A DNA stretch of 32,846 nt from a virus, in the IMG/VR virus record IMGVR_UViG_3300008122_000023, positions 1 through 32,846 of that record. The stretch is one strand, 5' to 3'. Below, piece by piece: positions 8,295 to 13,226 of this stretch. Position 1 is the first letter of the stretch, and each line of letters begins with the position of its first letter. The translations under genes and the position numbers were made by a program. The notes under the pieces are model-generated. The model was not told the DNA's origin, ran no database searches, and was given only the letters and a program-made list of their open reading frames with translations.

Positions 8295-8306
8295 AATAAT
8301 TCTCCA

Positions 8307-8338
8307 ATAAAAAAACGGTATAACTCATTATACCGTTT
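8307..8338 (-). terminator. Rho-independent terminator
   Basis: Eleven-base stem AAACGGTATAA / TTATACCGTTT with a 4-base loop. On the minus strand it is followed by a T run, ending the gene at 8361 just before the NTase start. Confidence 0.8.
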
Positions 8339-8360
8339 AATTACTTATTCGTATATGCAT

Positions 8361-9053
8361 TTAATCATCGAAATGGTGACCTGCTAATAATAAAGAATGA
8401 ATTATTTCAGGGTCATCAACTGGAATATTTTTTATAAACTTATGCCCCATATATTCAAATTCAGTATTATCTTCTTGCTGATTAATAAAAGCACGTGCTT
8501 CATCACCTTCTTTACGGGTAATAGTAACAAATTCAGTAAATAATTCTGCATCAAATGAACCATCCGCACGCGATGCAGTACGCATATCTTTATACTTATC
8601 ACTAATTTTATGATATATAGTAGAATGTATAGAATCGACGCCAGATGTTTTGCCATCAACAATATTATGTGGTAAGTGTAGTACGCCATCTTTCGAATAA
8701 CAGTAGATAGTCTCAAACGTCGATTGCTTAGTTAGATCAACTTCATCAATCTGAAAGTTATAATGCATAGTTAAAATAAAAAATGCAGAATGTGATGTTG
8801 AATCATATCCTAATGGAGTTTCAACTAAATTACCACTTCCGCCTAAAACATTTTGATAAAAATCAGTTGCACTTTTTGCATTCAATACACGACAAAATTC
8901 GCCAAACCAAACATATTGCATATCATGATCGTAAATCGCGCGATACATATTAATAGCATTAGTAATATGATGAATTTTTTCATCTAATTTAATAGATAAT
9001 TTTTGCAAACTATTTGAACCTAAGCTTGCAAGCATATATGTTGCGATATTCAT
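8361..9053 (-). CDS. Hypothetical protein, 230 aa
   Basis: No family recognised. Soluble with several His-containing stretches (LAGHHFDD at the end). The start at MNIATYML (9053) has AAGGA eight bases upstream. The longer in-frame start at 9086 would lie inside the preceding terminator hairpin and is rejected. Confidence 0.7.
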   Translation of the reverse strand: MNIATYMLASLGSNSLQKLSIKLDEKIHHITNAINMYRAIYDHDMQYVWFGEFCRVLNAKSATDFYQNVLGGSGNLVETPLGYDSTSHSAFFILTMHYNFQIDEVDLTKQSTFETIYCYSKDGVLHLPHNIVDGKTSGVDSIHSTIYHKISDKYKDMRTASRADGSFDAELFTEFVTITRKEGDEARAFINQQEDNTEFEYMGHKFIKNIPVDDPEIIHSLLLAGHHFDD

Positions 9054-9065
9054 ATTTAAATTCCT

Positions 9066-9091
9066 TAAAAAAGGATGCATTTGCATCCTTT
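9066..9091 (-). terminator. Rho-independent terminator
   Basis: Ten-base stem AAAGGATGCA / TGCATCCTTT followed by T's on the minus strand, just after the stop of the 189-aa gene at 9095. Confidence 0.8.
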
Positions 9092-9094
9092 ATA

Positions 9095-9664
9095 TTATTT
9101 GTTTGTTAGTAACAGTTTATCTAAATAGGATTCTTCTTTATCAAAATTTGGATGATAAATAAATTGCTTTTCTTTATCTTCTACAAGATTTTGTTCGTAG
9201 CCAAGACGATCCATATATTCATTTGCATATTCCAAATATAACGGACGTAAATCGCCTGTATTTTTGGCAACAACTATAGAGTGATGAGTTTCATCTACTG
9301 TAATAATTACGTATGATTCTGCAATTACATCATAAATGCTTACTAAAGTAGGGATAATTAAATGCGAACGCATGCTATTTTCAAAACAGCAATTGCCTGT
9401 TTTAGGGTTATAACCTGTTTTTAAATCTTTAAGCGCATCTTCCACATAGCTATAATTACCATTAGTATTCATACCAATAATAGCAAAAGCATATTGTGGA
9501 TTTGCTAGTTTATTAATAAAACCAAAATATTTAGCAATTTCAATGGATTTATCTGAAGCTGCCATATAGCCTTGTTGTTCAAAGCATGTAACAAGATCAC
9601 TCATATGATTAACAAATGAAGATTTAATTTTAGCAAGAACTAGAGAAGATGCAATTGTAGCCAT
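9095..9664 (-). CDS. Hypothetical protein, 189 aa (possible Cys/His hydrolase-like)
   Basis: No firm family. GNCCFENS (C92/C93) followed about 35 residues later by DETHHSIVV (H127/H128) and a downstream PLYLEYAN resembles the Cys-His order of papain-fold enzymes, but this is only a pattern match. Single-gene operon with its own promoter and terminator, suggesting independent, strong expression. Confidence 0.65.
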   Translation of the reverse strand: MATIASSLVLAKIKSSFVNHMSDLVTCFEQQGYMAASDKSIEIAKYFGFINKLANPQYAFAIIGMNTNGNYSYVEDALKDLKTGYNPKTGNCCFENSMRSHLIIPTLVSIYDVIAESYVIITVDETHHSIVVAKNTGDLRPLYLEYANEYMDRLGYEQNLVEDKEKQFIYHPNFDKEESYLDKLLLTNK

Positions 9665-9702
9665 TTTGTTTACCCCATCAGGTATAATTAGTTTGTATTT
9701 AC

Positions 9703-9731
9703 ATAATACCGCTTTAAAAATATTATGTAAA
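9703..9731 (-). promoter_or_regulatory. Promoter TTTACA-17-TATTAT
   Basis: On the minus strand, TTTACA (9731-9726) and TATTAT (9708-9703) have an exact 17-base spacer, reading into the gene at 9095. Confidence 0.7.
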
Positions 9732-9757
9732 CACGTTTTTTAAATTTATTGAACTTT

Positions 9758-10672
9758 TTAAAATTCAATAAATGGGTCTGCCACACTAATTACATTAGGA
9801 ATGCCTAAAGTATGCCATAAACGCACTATACAAGGACGGTCGTCGAATGCACCGATTACATTATATGTAGGCTCAATATGTTCCCAAAATAATTCTTCTT
9901 TAATAACAGTATCTTTACGCATATCGCCTTCAGCTCGCATATAGATTTCAACACCATCTTTTGGTAAGTTAAAATGTTCTGCAATCCAATCAATTGTTTC
10001 TTGACGACATACAGAATCACGACCTGACAAGAATACTAGATTGTGAGTTTTGTAATATTTGCAATAGTTTGTAATCATATCAATAATAAAAGAGCGTGGT
10101 GAATCTTGCCCGACTTTTTCCCATTCAAACGGATTACGGCCTACTCTATTAGCAATAGTACCATCTACATCAACAATAATTGCTTTAGGTTTATAGTCGC
10201 ATGGTACATATTTTTTAACACCAATATATTCTTGCCATAGTTTATATTGTTGATAGATCGTAGTTTGACCAACACCATTTCCGCGTGCAGCATCACGTTT
10301 CCATGCTTCTTCAAGAGTGATTGGGAATTCTTTAATAATTACTTCATAGCCTGCATCTGTTGCGCGTTCAATCCAATCGTCACGATATACTTTATTAAGA
10401 TTAGTATCAGAAATAATAATATCATCATTACGAGAAACTGCATCAATAAATTGCTGCATAGCAATATGTGAGACTTCCGCTTCGCGTGCTTTAGTAAATT
10501 TATATGTAGTCCAATCAGAACCAGGTAGAACATGATTAAAGCGAATATCATCACGATTAATATTAATTGTATTAATACCCTTTAATTGGTCATTTTTAAG
10601 TTGTTCATTTGCCCAAGTAGTTTTACCAGATGCAGAAACACCAACTGTCAAATAAAATTTTGGCTTGTTCAT
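9758..10672 (-). CDS. pseT: Polynucleotide 5'-kinase / 3'-phosphatase (T4 PseT type)
   Basis: 304 aa, close to the 301 aa of T4 Pnkp, with collinear motifs. The kinase domain has P-loop GVSASGKTT (K17), ININRDDIRF (D41 as likely base, R44) and ISDTNLN. The phosphatase (DxD acylphosphatase) domain has VDVDGTIAN (D168, D170), FLSGRDS (R218), RAEGDMRKD, KEELFWEHI and AFDDRP (D277, D278). It heals RNA ends by removing 2',3'-cyclic or 3' phosphates and phosphorylating 5'-OH, giving substrates for the Rnl1-type ligase two genes upstream. In T4 this pair repairs tRNA cut by the host PrrC nuclease. It has its own promoter at 10706-10734. Confidence 0.95.
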   Translation of the reverse strand: MNKPKFYLTVGVSASGKTTWANEQLKNDQLKGINTININRDDIRFNHVLPGSDWTTYKFTKAREAEVSHIAMQQFIDAVSRNDDIIISDTNLNKVYRDDWIERATDAGYEVIIKEFPITLEEAWKRDAARGNGVGQTTIYQQYKLWQEYIGVKKYVPCDYKPKAIIVDVDGTIANRVGRNPFEWEKVGQDSPRSFIIDMITNYCKYYKTHNLVFLSGRDSVCRQETIDWIAEHFNLPKDGVEIYMRAEGDMRKDTVIKEELFWEHIEPTYNVIGAFDDRPCIVRLWHTLGIPNVISVADPFIEF

Positions 10673-10705
10673 GATTTATACTCATTTATATTTACTAATA
10701 AGATG

Positions 10706-10734
10706 ATTATATTATAATTATATTTGCATGTACA
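10706..10734 (-). promoter_or_regulatory. Promoter TGTACA-17-TATAAT
   Basis: On the minus strand, TGTACA (10734-10729) and TATAAT (10711-10706), 17-base spacer, upstream of the PNKP gene. Confidence 0.65.
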
Positions 10735-10759
10735 TAATTATATTTGCTATTTTATATAT

Positions 10760-10843
10760 TCACAGATCGCTCCAGATCGCACTTTATGACATTCCTATAT
10801 AATCATATAGGCTTATTAATATAATTCAATCTGGAGCGAGTGA
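10760..10843 (-). other. Structured 3'-UTR element or small RNA
   Basis: A perfect 10-base inverted repeat CGCTCCAGAT (10768-10777) / ATCTGGAGCG (10829-10838) is flanked by TCAC / GTGA and encloses a second 7-base hairpin CCTATAT / ATATAGG (10794-10811). It is clearly GC-richer than its surroundings and sits between the stop of the Cys4 gene and the PNKP promoter. No T run follows, so it is not an ordinary terminator, and the arm lengths do not fit tRNA. The strand is inferred from the neighbours. Confidence 0.5.
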
Positions 10844-10849
10844 GGCGTA

Positions 10850-11329
10850 TTATTTATTATGTTTTAGCATGGCAGCATAGCGTTTTTCATCTGATGCTTC
10901 AAAGTAGCGATTGCCTAACTCTTTAATAAGGATTTTCTCATTTTTAGTTCGAAGCTCATATCGAACTTCACTAAGCATAACTTCTTCAAAGTCGTCATCT
11001 ACATCGTCAGCATACATATCGTGTTGTTGATAGTCTTGATGTAATTCATCAAAACCCATTGCTGTACAACAATCTTCACAATATCGATTAGTAAGAAGTT
11101 GACCATCCACATTGGCTACAAAAACACGTGAATAAGTACCTGGTTGGCAAATTGATAAACAATCTGAACAGAGTTGTTTGGTATTTCTAGTTTTTACAAT
11201 TTTATCCGATAAATTCGGACCATCACCAAAATCGCCTTCAAATGGATCAGTCGATAAGACTGCATCTTTCCACTGGTCAGATCCAACATTAATGATTTCA
11301 TTGTTATATGTAAATGTTTGTGTGTTCAT
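10850..11329 (-). CDS. Cys4 zinc-binding hypothetical protein, 159 aa
   Basis: LCSDCLSIC (C54, C57) and RYCEDCC (C84, C87) form two CxxC knuckles about 30 residues apart, probably one zinc site. An acidic segment (YADDVDDDFEEV) follows, then a basic helical tail. No family recognised. Preceded by a promoter; it lies between the large structured RNA and the PNKP gene. Confidence 0.7.
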   Translation of the reverse strand: MNTQTFTYNNEIINVGSDQWKDAVLSTDPFEGDFGDGPNLSDKIVKTRNTKQLCSDCLSICQPGTYSRVFVANVDGQLLTNRYCEDCCTAMGFDELHQDYQQHDMYADDVDDDFEEVMLSEVRYELRTKNEKILIKELGNRYFEASDEKRYAAMLKHNK

Positions 11330-11360
11330 AATCTATACTCATTTAATATTTGTATGTATG

Positions 11361-11389
11361 AATATATCATATAATTATTATTTTGTAAT
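11361..11389 (-). promoter_or_regulatory. Promoter ATTACA-17-TATATT
   Basis: On the minus strand, ATTACA (11389-11384) and TATATT (11366-11361) with a 17-base spacer, upstream of the Cys4 gene. The -35 overlaps one arm of the 11-base inverted repeat 11387-11397 / 11452-11462. Confidence 0.5.
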
Positions 11390-12070
11390 TATCTTTCTTC
11401 CAGGCATGACTGTACCCATTGTATCCGTGATTAAATAGAAAATCTTAATTTGAAAGATAATTGAAAATATAAAGAAAAAAAAGAAAATTATATTTAAAAA
11501 TATCTATTGATATAAAGAGACATATTGAAAGTTATAAGATGATACATATGATTTTAGTATTTCATTTAATAAAGAATATTCCTTATTAAAGTCACAGTGA
11601 GTCCAACAATACTCGTATCATTTAATTATTGCTAATTAAACTTACTACAATGGTTTATCCAAAAGGTTTGACCTTTCTGCTCTTTGTCGTAAAGCAGTTA
11701 TCCTTACACCAATTTAAGGCTGGTGTAACAGTTATAAAATATACAATTTATATATTTTATCAGATTGTGCAATAGTTATTAACCTATGTATAGCAATCTA
11801 TAGACTACGGTTGGTATGACACTTTAATAAAAATCCTTAACTACTATGACTCTTATTAAAGCAATTCATTGTTCATTACTTCAATGAATTATTCATCTAT
11901 ACTGGCGATCTACCTCAACCTGCTTAGCAGGAATCACGTCGCTCGGTTGTCAGGGTGGACAGAGCCGGCACTTTATTTTTAGTAGTATGAATGTTATCAA
12001 TTCACGCCCTTCATTCTATTATTCAATGCCCAAATGAAGTAAGGCTAATATTTTAATAAATATTGAAACA
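11387..12070 (-). ncRNA. Candidate large structured non-coding RNA (~0.6-0.7 kb)
   Basis: The only stretch here over 300 bases without a plausible gene. Read on the minus strand it contains many perfect helices: 12047-12053/12058-12064, 12009-12015/12033-12039, CCTGC-TAA-GCAGG (11919-11931), 11863-11871/11882-11890 (9 bp), 11822-11830/11853-11861 (9 bp), 11762-11767/11794-11799, 11734-11743/11751-11760 (10 bp), 11704-11711/11721-11728 (8 bp), 11677-11681/11693-11697, 11662-11667/11671-11676, 11621-11628/11633-11640 (8 bp, GCAA loop), 11565-11575/11580-11590 (11 bp), and a nested pair 11539-11545/11615-11621 with 11556-11561/11608-11613. The minus strand is indicated by the GNRA loop, a G-U pair that would be A-C on the plus strand, and a promoter at 12077-12105. 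The 3' end is uncertain: it may stop at the T-rich tract near 11470-11490 or include the 11387-11462 stem. Size recalls the ornate phage RNAs GOLLD and ROOL, but I cannot assign it to either. Confidence 0.55.
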
Positions 12071-12076
12071 TATATA

Positions 12077-12105
12077 TTTATATCATAATTTATTATGTTT
12101 GTAAA
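12077..12105 (-). promoter_or_regulatory. Promoter TTTACA-17-TATAAA for the structured RNA
   Basis: On the minus strand, TTTACA (12105-12100), a 17-base spacer and TATAAA (12082-12077). The -10 extends to TATAAATA, identical to the T4 late-promoter consensus. It sits directly after the Rnl1 gene's terminator and reads into the gene-free block, not into a nearby start codon. Confidence 0.6.
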
Positions 12106-12107
12106 AC

Positions 12108-12135
12108 AAAAAGAGGATCAAATGATCCTCTTTTT
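12108..12135 (-). terminator. Rho-independent terminator after the Rnl1-type ligase
   Basis: Thirteen-base stem AAAAAGAGGATCA / TGATCCTCTTTTT with a minimal loop, two bases past the ligase stop. Nearly symmetric, so it could also act on + strand transcripts. Confidence 0.85.
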
Positions 12136-12137
12136 AA

Positions 12138-13226
12138 TTAAACTACTTTAAACTCTTTAATAATTTTCCGTTTAGATGGATTTAATAAACGATTAAATGC
12201 TTCTTTAACATTATTACCTTGCTTCATGCTGAATAATAAAGATTGATATTTGTTATTTTTAACAGCTTTAGCAAATTCAATTTTATCTTCAATATGAGCT
12301 ACTTCCGCAAAATCGTTTTCTATTAATGTATAGAAATTTTGTAAGCCATCAAAATATGGCATAATACGATGACGATCTTCTGGGAAATACGTTAAATATT
12401 CATCAATTTCATTATTAAGAATAAGTGTACATACTCGTCCAACTGATAAATCTTCACCTTTAATTAGATGTGCTTGTACATAAGCGGGAGATTTAATTTT
12501 TAAAGTTGGTACATTATCAACATAGATAACATATCCTTCTTCAAAGTTTTTTAATTCTTTAGCCGCTTTAATACAATCTTCAATTGTAGCAAGATCATAT
12601 TGGTTTGGTAATTTTGCACCAATTATTGATCCATCAAAATCAATATATGTACCACATTTATTTTTACGAGCGGCAAGATACCAAAGCTCAGGCACTTCAT
12701 ATCGAGTAACAATACGAGTTTCGCGAGATGTTACTTCATAGATATAAGTTGTATTAATATCAAATGTTGCACAACGATCATTAAATTCATTATCATCATT
12801 TACATTAATAGCGCGATATACCAGCTCTTTATAAGTAAAGCCATGATCAGAAACATCGCTTTCACCATAAATACGACCGCTTGTTGCAACACGCCATTGT
12901 AATGCTTTTACGTCGAACCAAATTTTAATAAGTGATCCATCTAATTTATCAAAGATTTTTGCACGACTAAAATCAATACCGCCTTGTGGTGCAGCTGGTT
13001 CACCATGATTAAAGAATCGATCAAACGGGCGACATACGATATTATAATCTTCATCAAAAATTACGCCACGACATTGAGCAGCAACTCGACTGGCAGATGG
13101 AGTTTCAAATTGATCGTATGTAATAGTTACATAACCTTCTGGATATTGTTTATACATCATTCCTAATAAAGCTTGTAATCCTTTTAATGTGACTTCGCCT
13201 CGCTTTAACATCATTTGAATAATCAT
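12138..13226 (-). CDS. rnlA: RNA ligase, T4 Rnl1 type
   Basis: 362 aa, near the 374 aa of T4 Rnl1. Nucleotidyltransferase motifs in order: the upstream RGVIFD and RPFDRFFNHGE region, motif I DKLDGSLI (nucleotidyl K94), motif III TYIYEV (E164), motif IV EEGYVIY (E230), and motif V TLKIKSPAYV (K243, K245). The remaining ~110 residues form a helical C-terminal domain, as in Rnl1 enzymes that favour tRNA. It joins 5'-phosphate and 3'-OH RNA ends with ATP and would act with the PNKP at 9758. The start is set by AAGGA seven bases upstream. Transcription ends in a strong hairpin. Confidence 0.92.
   Translation of the reverse strand: MIIQMMLKRGEVTLKGLQALLGMMYKQYPEGYVTITYDQFETPSASRVAAQCRGVIFDEDYNIVCRPFDRFFNHGEPAAPQGGIDFSRAKIFDKLDGSLIKIWFDVKALQWRVATSGRIYGESDVSDHGFTYKELVYRAINVNDDNEFNDRCATFDINTTYIYEVTSRETRIVTRYEVPELWYLAARKNKCGTYIDFDGSIIGAKLPNQYDLATIEDCIKAAKELKNFEEGYVIYVDNVPTLKIKSPAYVQAHLIKGEDLSVGRVCTLILNNEIDEYLTYFPEDRHRIMPYFDGLQNFYTLIENDFAEVAHIEDKIEFAKAVKNNKYQSLLFSMKQGNNVKEAFNRLLNPSKRKIIKEFKVV

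Follow-up and report, generated by a model that had tools for sequence, protein, structure and literature searches.

An ORF survey of the window, the 32,846-nt stretch of viral DNA analysed here, leaves positions 11330-12137 without a coding ORF, a gap of ~0.8 kb with no plausible gene between the gene for Rnl1 (12138-13226) on one side and a gene for a 159-aa protein (10850-11329) on the other. The initial annotation had placed this block between Rnl1 and PNKP, which holds on the Rnl1 side only, as the other neighbour is the 159-aa gene and PNKP lies further on at 9758-10672. Within the gap we assign to the minus strand a noncoding RNA gene of ~670 nt (11393-12070, copy c1), on the evidence of paralogues, orthologues, covariation and an out-of-sample homologue, d1. 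Its 5′ end is approximate and set from the -10 box, and its 3′ end is the last block of a conserved tail that runs to about 11393 and pairs back to 11938-11932, which corrects the extent first given. A coding function is ruled out, as the longest stop-to-stop stretch across the seven paralogues is 70 codons and no such stretch is conserved.

A sigma70-like promoter, TTTACA-17-TATAAA (12077-12105, minus strand; TTTACA at 12105-12100 and TATAAA at 12082-12077), recognised by eye without statistics, sits right behind the inverted repeat or terminator-like hairpin that follows Rnl1 (12108-12135, minus strand, read from the sequence), as the initial annotation had described. A consensus promoter scan omits this promoter because its TATAAA lacks the final T. 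By eye, TTTAC(A/T) near -35 is also found in c4-c7 and a GATA-type -10 in most copies, and c3 and c6 are also preceded by terminator hairpins. Just behind the RNA, a promoter-like site of a kind that the scan finds no commoner than chance, ATTACA-17-TATATT (11361-11389, minus strand), could drive the gene at 10850-11329 separately; no intrinsic terminator was found after the conserved tail. Elsewhere in the window, the 379-aa product of 459-1598 matches phrog_6931 and, more weakly, profiles of polynucleotide kinase and tRNA nucleotidyltransferase. Comparison of window positions 8301-11000 with the sequence L001 reveals a ~1.4-kb patch over PNKP that is ~85% identical and is flanked on both sides by sequence 98-100% identical, which suggests recombination.

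Copies of the RNA in related phages

Relatives were reached through a search with Rnl1, which led to a 380,997-bp phage contig (G001) whose corresponding locus holds this RNA at 99% identity to the window block. Searching the whole record with the block recovers six further dispersed full-length copies, 54-69% identical to the window copy. The core motif CCAACNGTARTNT is present at seven places in G001 and at one in the window, whereas its reversed control has 0 matches. BLAST, motif and covariance model agree on the seven G001 copies, which lie at ~27, 58, 87, 151, 191, 265 and 343 kb and are all intergenic; c1-c7 are 50-73% identical among themselves and form two subgroups, c1-c3 and c4-c7. 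A third phage has orthologues of four copies, and in contigs of sample 3300008122 we find sequences 99-100% identical to c4, c5 and c6, their orthologues, together with the 3′ end of c7. The homologue d1, from a more distant phage and the single copy on its contig (L094; 82 kb, another sample), was found by a tail pattern (nhmmer E 6.5e-74) and is 46-59% identical to c1-c7; it shares the neighbourhood of c4, namely a small gene of weak similarity and a thymidylate kinase gene whose product is 68% identical. All of these sequences are metagenomic, and the alignment is small, consisting of seven paralogues and one homologue. The window RNA thereby appears to be one member of a dispersed paralogous RNA gene family in a lineage of giant phages, which we call T4-related only on the strength of matches, roughly 30-40% identical, between such phages and the primase and Rnl1 of this phage. 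Orthologues differ at 0.16%, 0.53%, 0.88% and 0.44% in the RNA versus 4.1%, 1.6%, 3.6% and 5.9% in the mostly coding flanks, a contrast that is inflated for c1 because its flank includes the diverged patch around PNKP.

No copies were found in the isolated phages or bacterial genomes searched. BLASTN with c1 and c6 as queries returned only terminators and AT-rich stretches from 50,697 phage records, two pattern searches of genome contigs gave no match, and a covariance model built from c1-c7 only (R1) has no match in ICP1, ME3 or seven further phages; in G001 it finds just the seven copies and one sub-threshold chance match. An exact 18-mer match (L004) and pattern matches in L015-L017, L022, most of L033-L073 and L095/L096 were judged by BLAST or profile HMM to be chance, and a partial match at 373 kb (L012) was rejected as a copy, being antisense within a 305-aa ORF and without the core motif.

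The position beside Rnl1 and PNKP had suggested a link to RNA repair. As a specific link this finds no support, because other copies adjoin unrelated genes: c3 a DUF3268 zinc-finger gene, c6 PTH2-like and macro-domain genes, with c4 and d1 in the thymidylate kinase neighbourhood. Proteins of ~250 aa matching the first third of phrog_12810 number ten in G001 and 12 in G005, which is 82 kb long (including L008:2297-3040 and L094:9861-10610), and one such gene is directly upstream of c3 and others are within ~3 kb of c2, c4 and d1; this proximity is weak evidence because each phage has 10-12 family members, and a connection to the RNA was set aside. G001 also has partial terminase-profile matches in two separate places (195391-195843 and 38081-38908); the matching stretch contains in-frame stops, and the gene may be split or intron-interrupted.

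Conserved structure and covariation

The minus strand of the block is more stable than all 20 of 20 dinucleotide shuffles (z -3.85, compared with -2.3 for the plus strand), and the 489-nt core alone gives a folding z of -4.2. Minimum free energy by itself is not decisive, with c5 reaching a z of only -0.9 and several copies scoring on both strands. Over the conserved helices of all copies, the ratio of G-U to A-C combinations is 14:2, indicating that the minus strand is the RNA strand, in agreement with the initial annotation.

Covariation was evaluated by positioning helices through their conserved loops or flanks and then swapping 3′ strands among paralogues. Across 11 helices, 378 of 392 cells pair in their own copy (96%) versus a mean of 260 (66%) and a maximum of 304 in 20,000 shuffles, and 52 of 61 pairs vary on both sides among the paralogues, although this test leans towards structure because some 5′ strands were located by eye. 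Independent support comes from MAFFT alignments, in which the named structure has covariation scores of 0.73 and 0.69 versus 0.22 and 0.25 when shuffled, scores that collapse once partners are slid by 1-3 columns, and from an unbiased, structure-free scan of all column pairs, which recovers H4, H13, PK3 and LR (four helices with at least two double changes versus ~0.6 expected per column-shuffled alignment). The homologue d1, which was found by sequence and left out of the structure definition, forms 75 of 78 predicted pairs with strands located by hand (random segments: mean 31, maximum 49) and scores 139 bits with R1. The ORF-free structured RNA first proposed from the window alone is thus borne out by the absence of an ORF, a fold that beats shuffled sequence and a strongly positive comparison of homologues, both among paralogues and in d1, and the c1 block is confirmed, at the level of sequence, as a conserved structured RNA gene.

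The comparison shows a compact predicted core (~500 nt) in which no fewer than 11 helices are conserved, the contacts PK1, PK3 and PK2, an AU-rich linker and the LR tail. From the 5′ end, and on the minus strand throughout, the 5′-most hairpin is H1 (12047-12064), in which 34 of 42 cells pair in their own copy versus 46% when swapped, over six copies. H2 with PK1 (12009-12045) is supported by covariation and has a conserved loop, GGGC..GAAUAAUAG; PK1 is an H-type pseudoknot in which GCCU (12045-12042), just upstream of H2, pairs with the loop GGGC (12031-12028), with compensation in c2 (GCCG/CGGC) and c7 (GUCU/GGAC). Beyond H3 (11987-12005; loop UGAUAAY, covariation) comes the joining strand ACUACUA (11980-11986), the first strand of PK3, whose partner in the unbiased column-pair scan is the apical loop UAGUAGU (11846-11840) of the long stem H8 (11821-11862; 56 of 56 cells paired, 49% when swapped); in c4 and d1 PK3 becomes GCAAUCA/UGAUUGC. 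The stacked hairpin H4/H5 (11941-11969), which lies in the GC-rich block and also covaries, is followed by CGUGAUU (11932-11938), which forms LR with the tail sequence AAUCACG (11432-11426), a pairing across ~500 nt with compensatory changes in c3 and c5. An alternative, local partner of the CGUGAU strand is AUCGC 3′ of hairpin H6 (11919-11931; recognised from sequence, with a GAAA tetraloop in c3, c5, c7 and d1), so that a switch or co-transcriptional refolding is possible.

The invariant core ACCAACCGUA (11809-11818) contains CCAAC, which is complementary to GUUGG in the loop of hairpin H15 (11599-11614; GAGU-AUUGUUGG-ACUC, covariation). Since both are invariant, this putative contact, PK2, rests on complementarity and not on covariation. 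Between the core and H15 come H10-H14 and H16, among them H12 (11704-11728; loop GCC.., with 8 of 8 pairs changing on both sides and 100% paired), H13 (11677-11697; loop UAYGRCAAA, covariation and unbiased scan) and H16 (11621-11640; covariation), which in the window copy is the GCAA tetraloop hairpin singled out in the initial annotation, TTTAATTA-GCAA-TAATTAAA at 11640-11621. A variable AU-rich linker (11433-11598), mostly unalignable, leads to the conserved 3′ tail AAUCACGGAUACAAUGGGUACAGUCAUGCC..GGAAGAAAG (11393-11432), which holds the second LR strand, and the distance from GUUGG to the tail is 178-331 nt among the copies. We adopted LR in place of a simple terminal hairpin in the tail, which by eye was inconsistent across copies. 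On the 3′ side of the c2 tail (L007) there is a perfect 12-nt complement of the tail (AATCATGGATAC / GTATCCATGATT) that could sequester it, and on the 3′ side of the c4 tail (L009/L018) a short tandem repeat (AATAAAG)n that differs in length between c4 and its orthologue o4.

Possible roles of the RNA

Our preferred reading, held with middling confidence, is that the RNA is free-standing, ~670 nt long and noncoding, and would act in trans as a structural scaffold of the GOLLD/ROOL kind. A stand-alone, trans-acting RNA is favoured by the antisense orientation of c2 and by the terminators located upstream of c1, c3 and c6, as well as by sigma70-like promoters of its own. Assembly is the preferred mechanism by analogy only, given a GOLLD/ROOL-like architecture (ornate core, variable linker, loop-to-joining-strand contacts, a length of 600-800 nt and a phage setting); GOLLD and ROOL build RNA-only particles in vitro (PMC12286853). 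Each copy would be transcribed from its own sigma70-like promoter and would fold through the PK1, PK2, PK3 and LR contacts into a scaffold. During infection it would probably form a stable particle together with the same or paralogous RNA copies, or with a protein, and PK3 or LR could be intermolecular bridges in it. In a quite unlikely extension of the same analogy, all seven diverged paralogues would join as subunits in one hetero-oligomeric RNA-only particle, bridged by PK3, PK2 or LR, and the linker of each subunit would supply it with a different cargo in the interior.

The main rival, because d1 and all but one of the seven copies have a gene in the same orientation downstream, is a cis-acting leader, a possible if secondary reading in which the RNA would be the 5′ UTR of that gene, controlling read-through or translation of the operon by antitermination or in a riboswitch-like manner, the two exclusive pairings of the CGUGAU strand, local or with the tail, serving as the switch. 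In c6, AAGGAG and a start codon directly follow the tail, and the neighbourhood kept by c4 and d1, with thymidylate kinase nearby, would also fit a leader. Yet the downstream genes are mutually unrelated, a promoter-like site separates the c1 RNA from the gene that follows, at this size the RNA would make a very large leader, and c2 is antisense to both neighbours, inside a block of opposite-strand genes, so at least this copy cannot be a leader.

We consider it improbable that the RNA is instead a sponge or decoy, abundant and stable, for a defence factor of the host that binds or cleaves RNA and would be titrated by it, with divergent copies covering target variants. Multiple copies with diverged sequences and the location of one copy near the RNA-repair genes for Rnl1 and PNKP are consistent with this, but the conserved, intricate long-range contacts exceed a sponge's needs, no defence gene or target is recognisable and other copies lie away from repair genes. 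Dispersal of several copies in one genome could also reflect a ribozyme element, mobile or self-processing and akin to an intron or to HEARO, that has reached seven sites; we find this very improbable, as there is no Rfam intron, HEARO or ribozyme match and the copies are intergenic, have promoters, are old (50-73% identical) and keep their positions in other phages. A structured DNA element (an origin, packaging or condensation site), which the rough spread of copies over the genome might suggest, is scarcely credible when the 14:2 ratio, the GNRA loops and the promoters all indicate RNA from one strand.

Comparison with known large RNAs

Rfam at gathering scores gave nothing above threshold for the window block, and a permissive threshold applied to all copies gave only terminator-type and chance matches. 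HEARO, group I/II intron, tmRNA and RNase P covariance models match none of the copies. The ROOL model (RF03087, gathering score 99.1) has no match at E<=10 in G001-G004, in a search that finds the positive control pMP118 at 130.4 bits; the GOLLD model (RF02032, gathering score 150), run without a true GOLLD positive control, likewise has none at E<=10 in G001-G004, and that for OLE (RF01071), also run without a positive control, has none in G001 or G005. The initial annotation had likened the block to GOLLD/ROOL-type RNAs and made no assignment, and indeed, judged by the Rfam models, it is none of GOLLD, ROOL, OLE, group I/II introns, tmRNA and RNase P. An ~800-nt orf-less noncoding RNA in the gp139-gp140 interval is reported to be the most abundant ICP1 transcript (PMC7567579); it matches neither the family HMM nor R1. 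Phage K has abundant long noncoding RNAs, reported to lie near tRNA genes (PMC9241854); the likeness to the present RNA is one of description, and BLASTN gave no match to the family among phage records. A search of the open-access literature found no description of such a family.

With extensive covarying structure, long-range contacts and no ORF, the RNA is, judged from sequence, a new family among the large ornate phage RNAs, and its multiple paralogous copies are unusual for them. OLE is similarly an ornate RNA of ~600 nt, but bacterial and not from phage. ROOL, from phages and prophages (574 model positions; env-120 has 659 nt), shares the large ornate form, the pseudoknots and kissing loops and a variable linker, whereas the present family has seven paralogues per genome, no tRNA nearby and no covariance-model match. 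Many GOLLD and ROOL loci lie near tRNAs (frequently, though not universally, for GOLLD), unlike the copies examined here; ARAGORN finds no tRNA gene in the window or in the flanks of these copies. The likeness to GOLLD, another large ornate phage RNA, extends to the variable linker and to a loop-to-joining-strand contact (L20 with J13/15 in GOLLD), but the sequence and helices are different, the new family is multi-copy, and the conserved half is 3′ in GOLLD whereas here the core is 5′ and only a short 3′ tail is conserved. In the GOLLD and ROOL structures the variable linkers lie inside RNA-only cages, and one loop-to-joining-strand contact proved intermolecular (PMC12286853). Up to seven noncoding folded copies in a giant phage would point to an RNA-based function in these viruses. 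Set beside GOLLD and ROOL, the large ornate phage RNAs recently shown to form RNA-only cages (PMC12286853), a strongly constrained, unrelated family with this type of architecture and several diverged copies per genome offers natural variation within one organism, and with it a test of whether ornate RNA assemblies had more than one origin and whether paralogues co-assemble.
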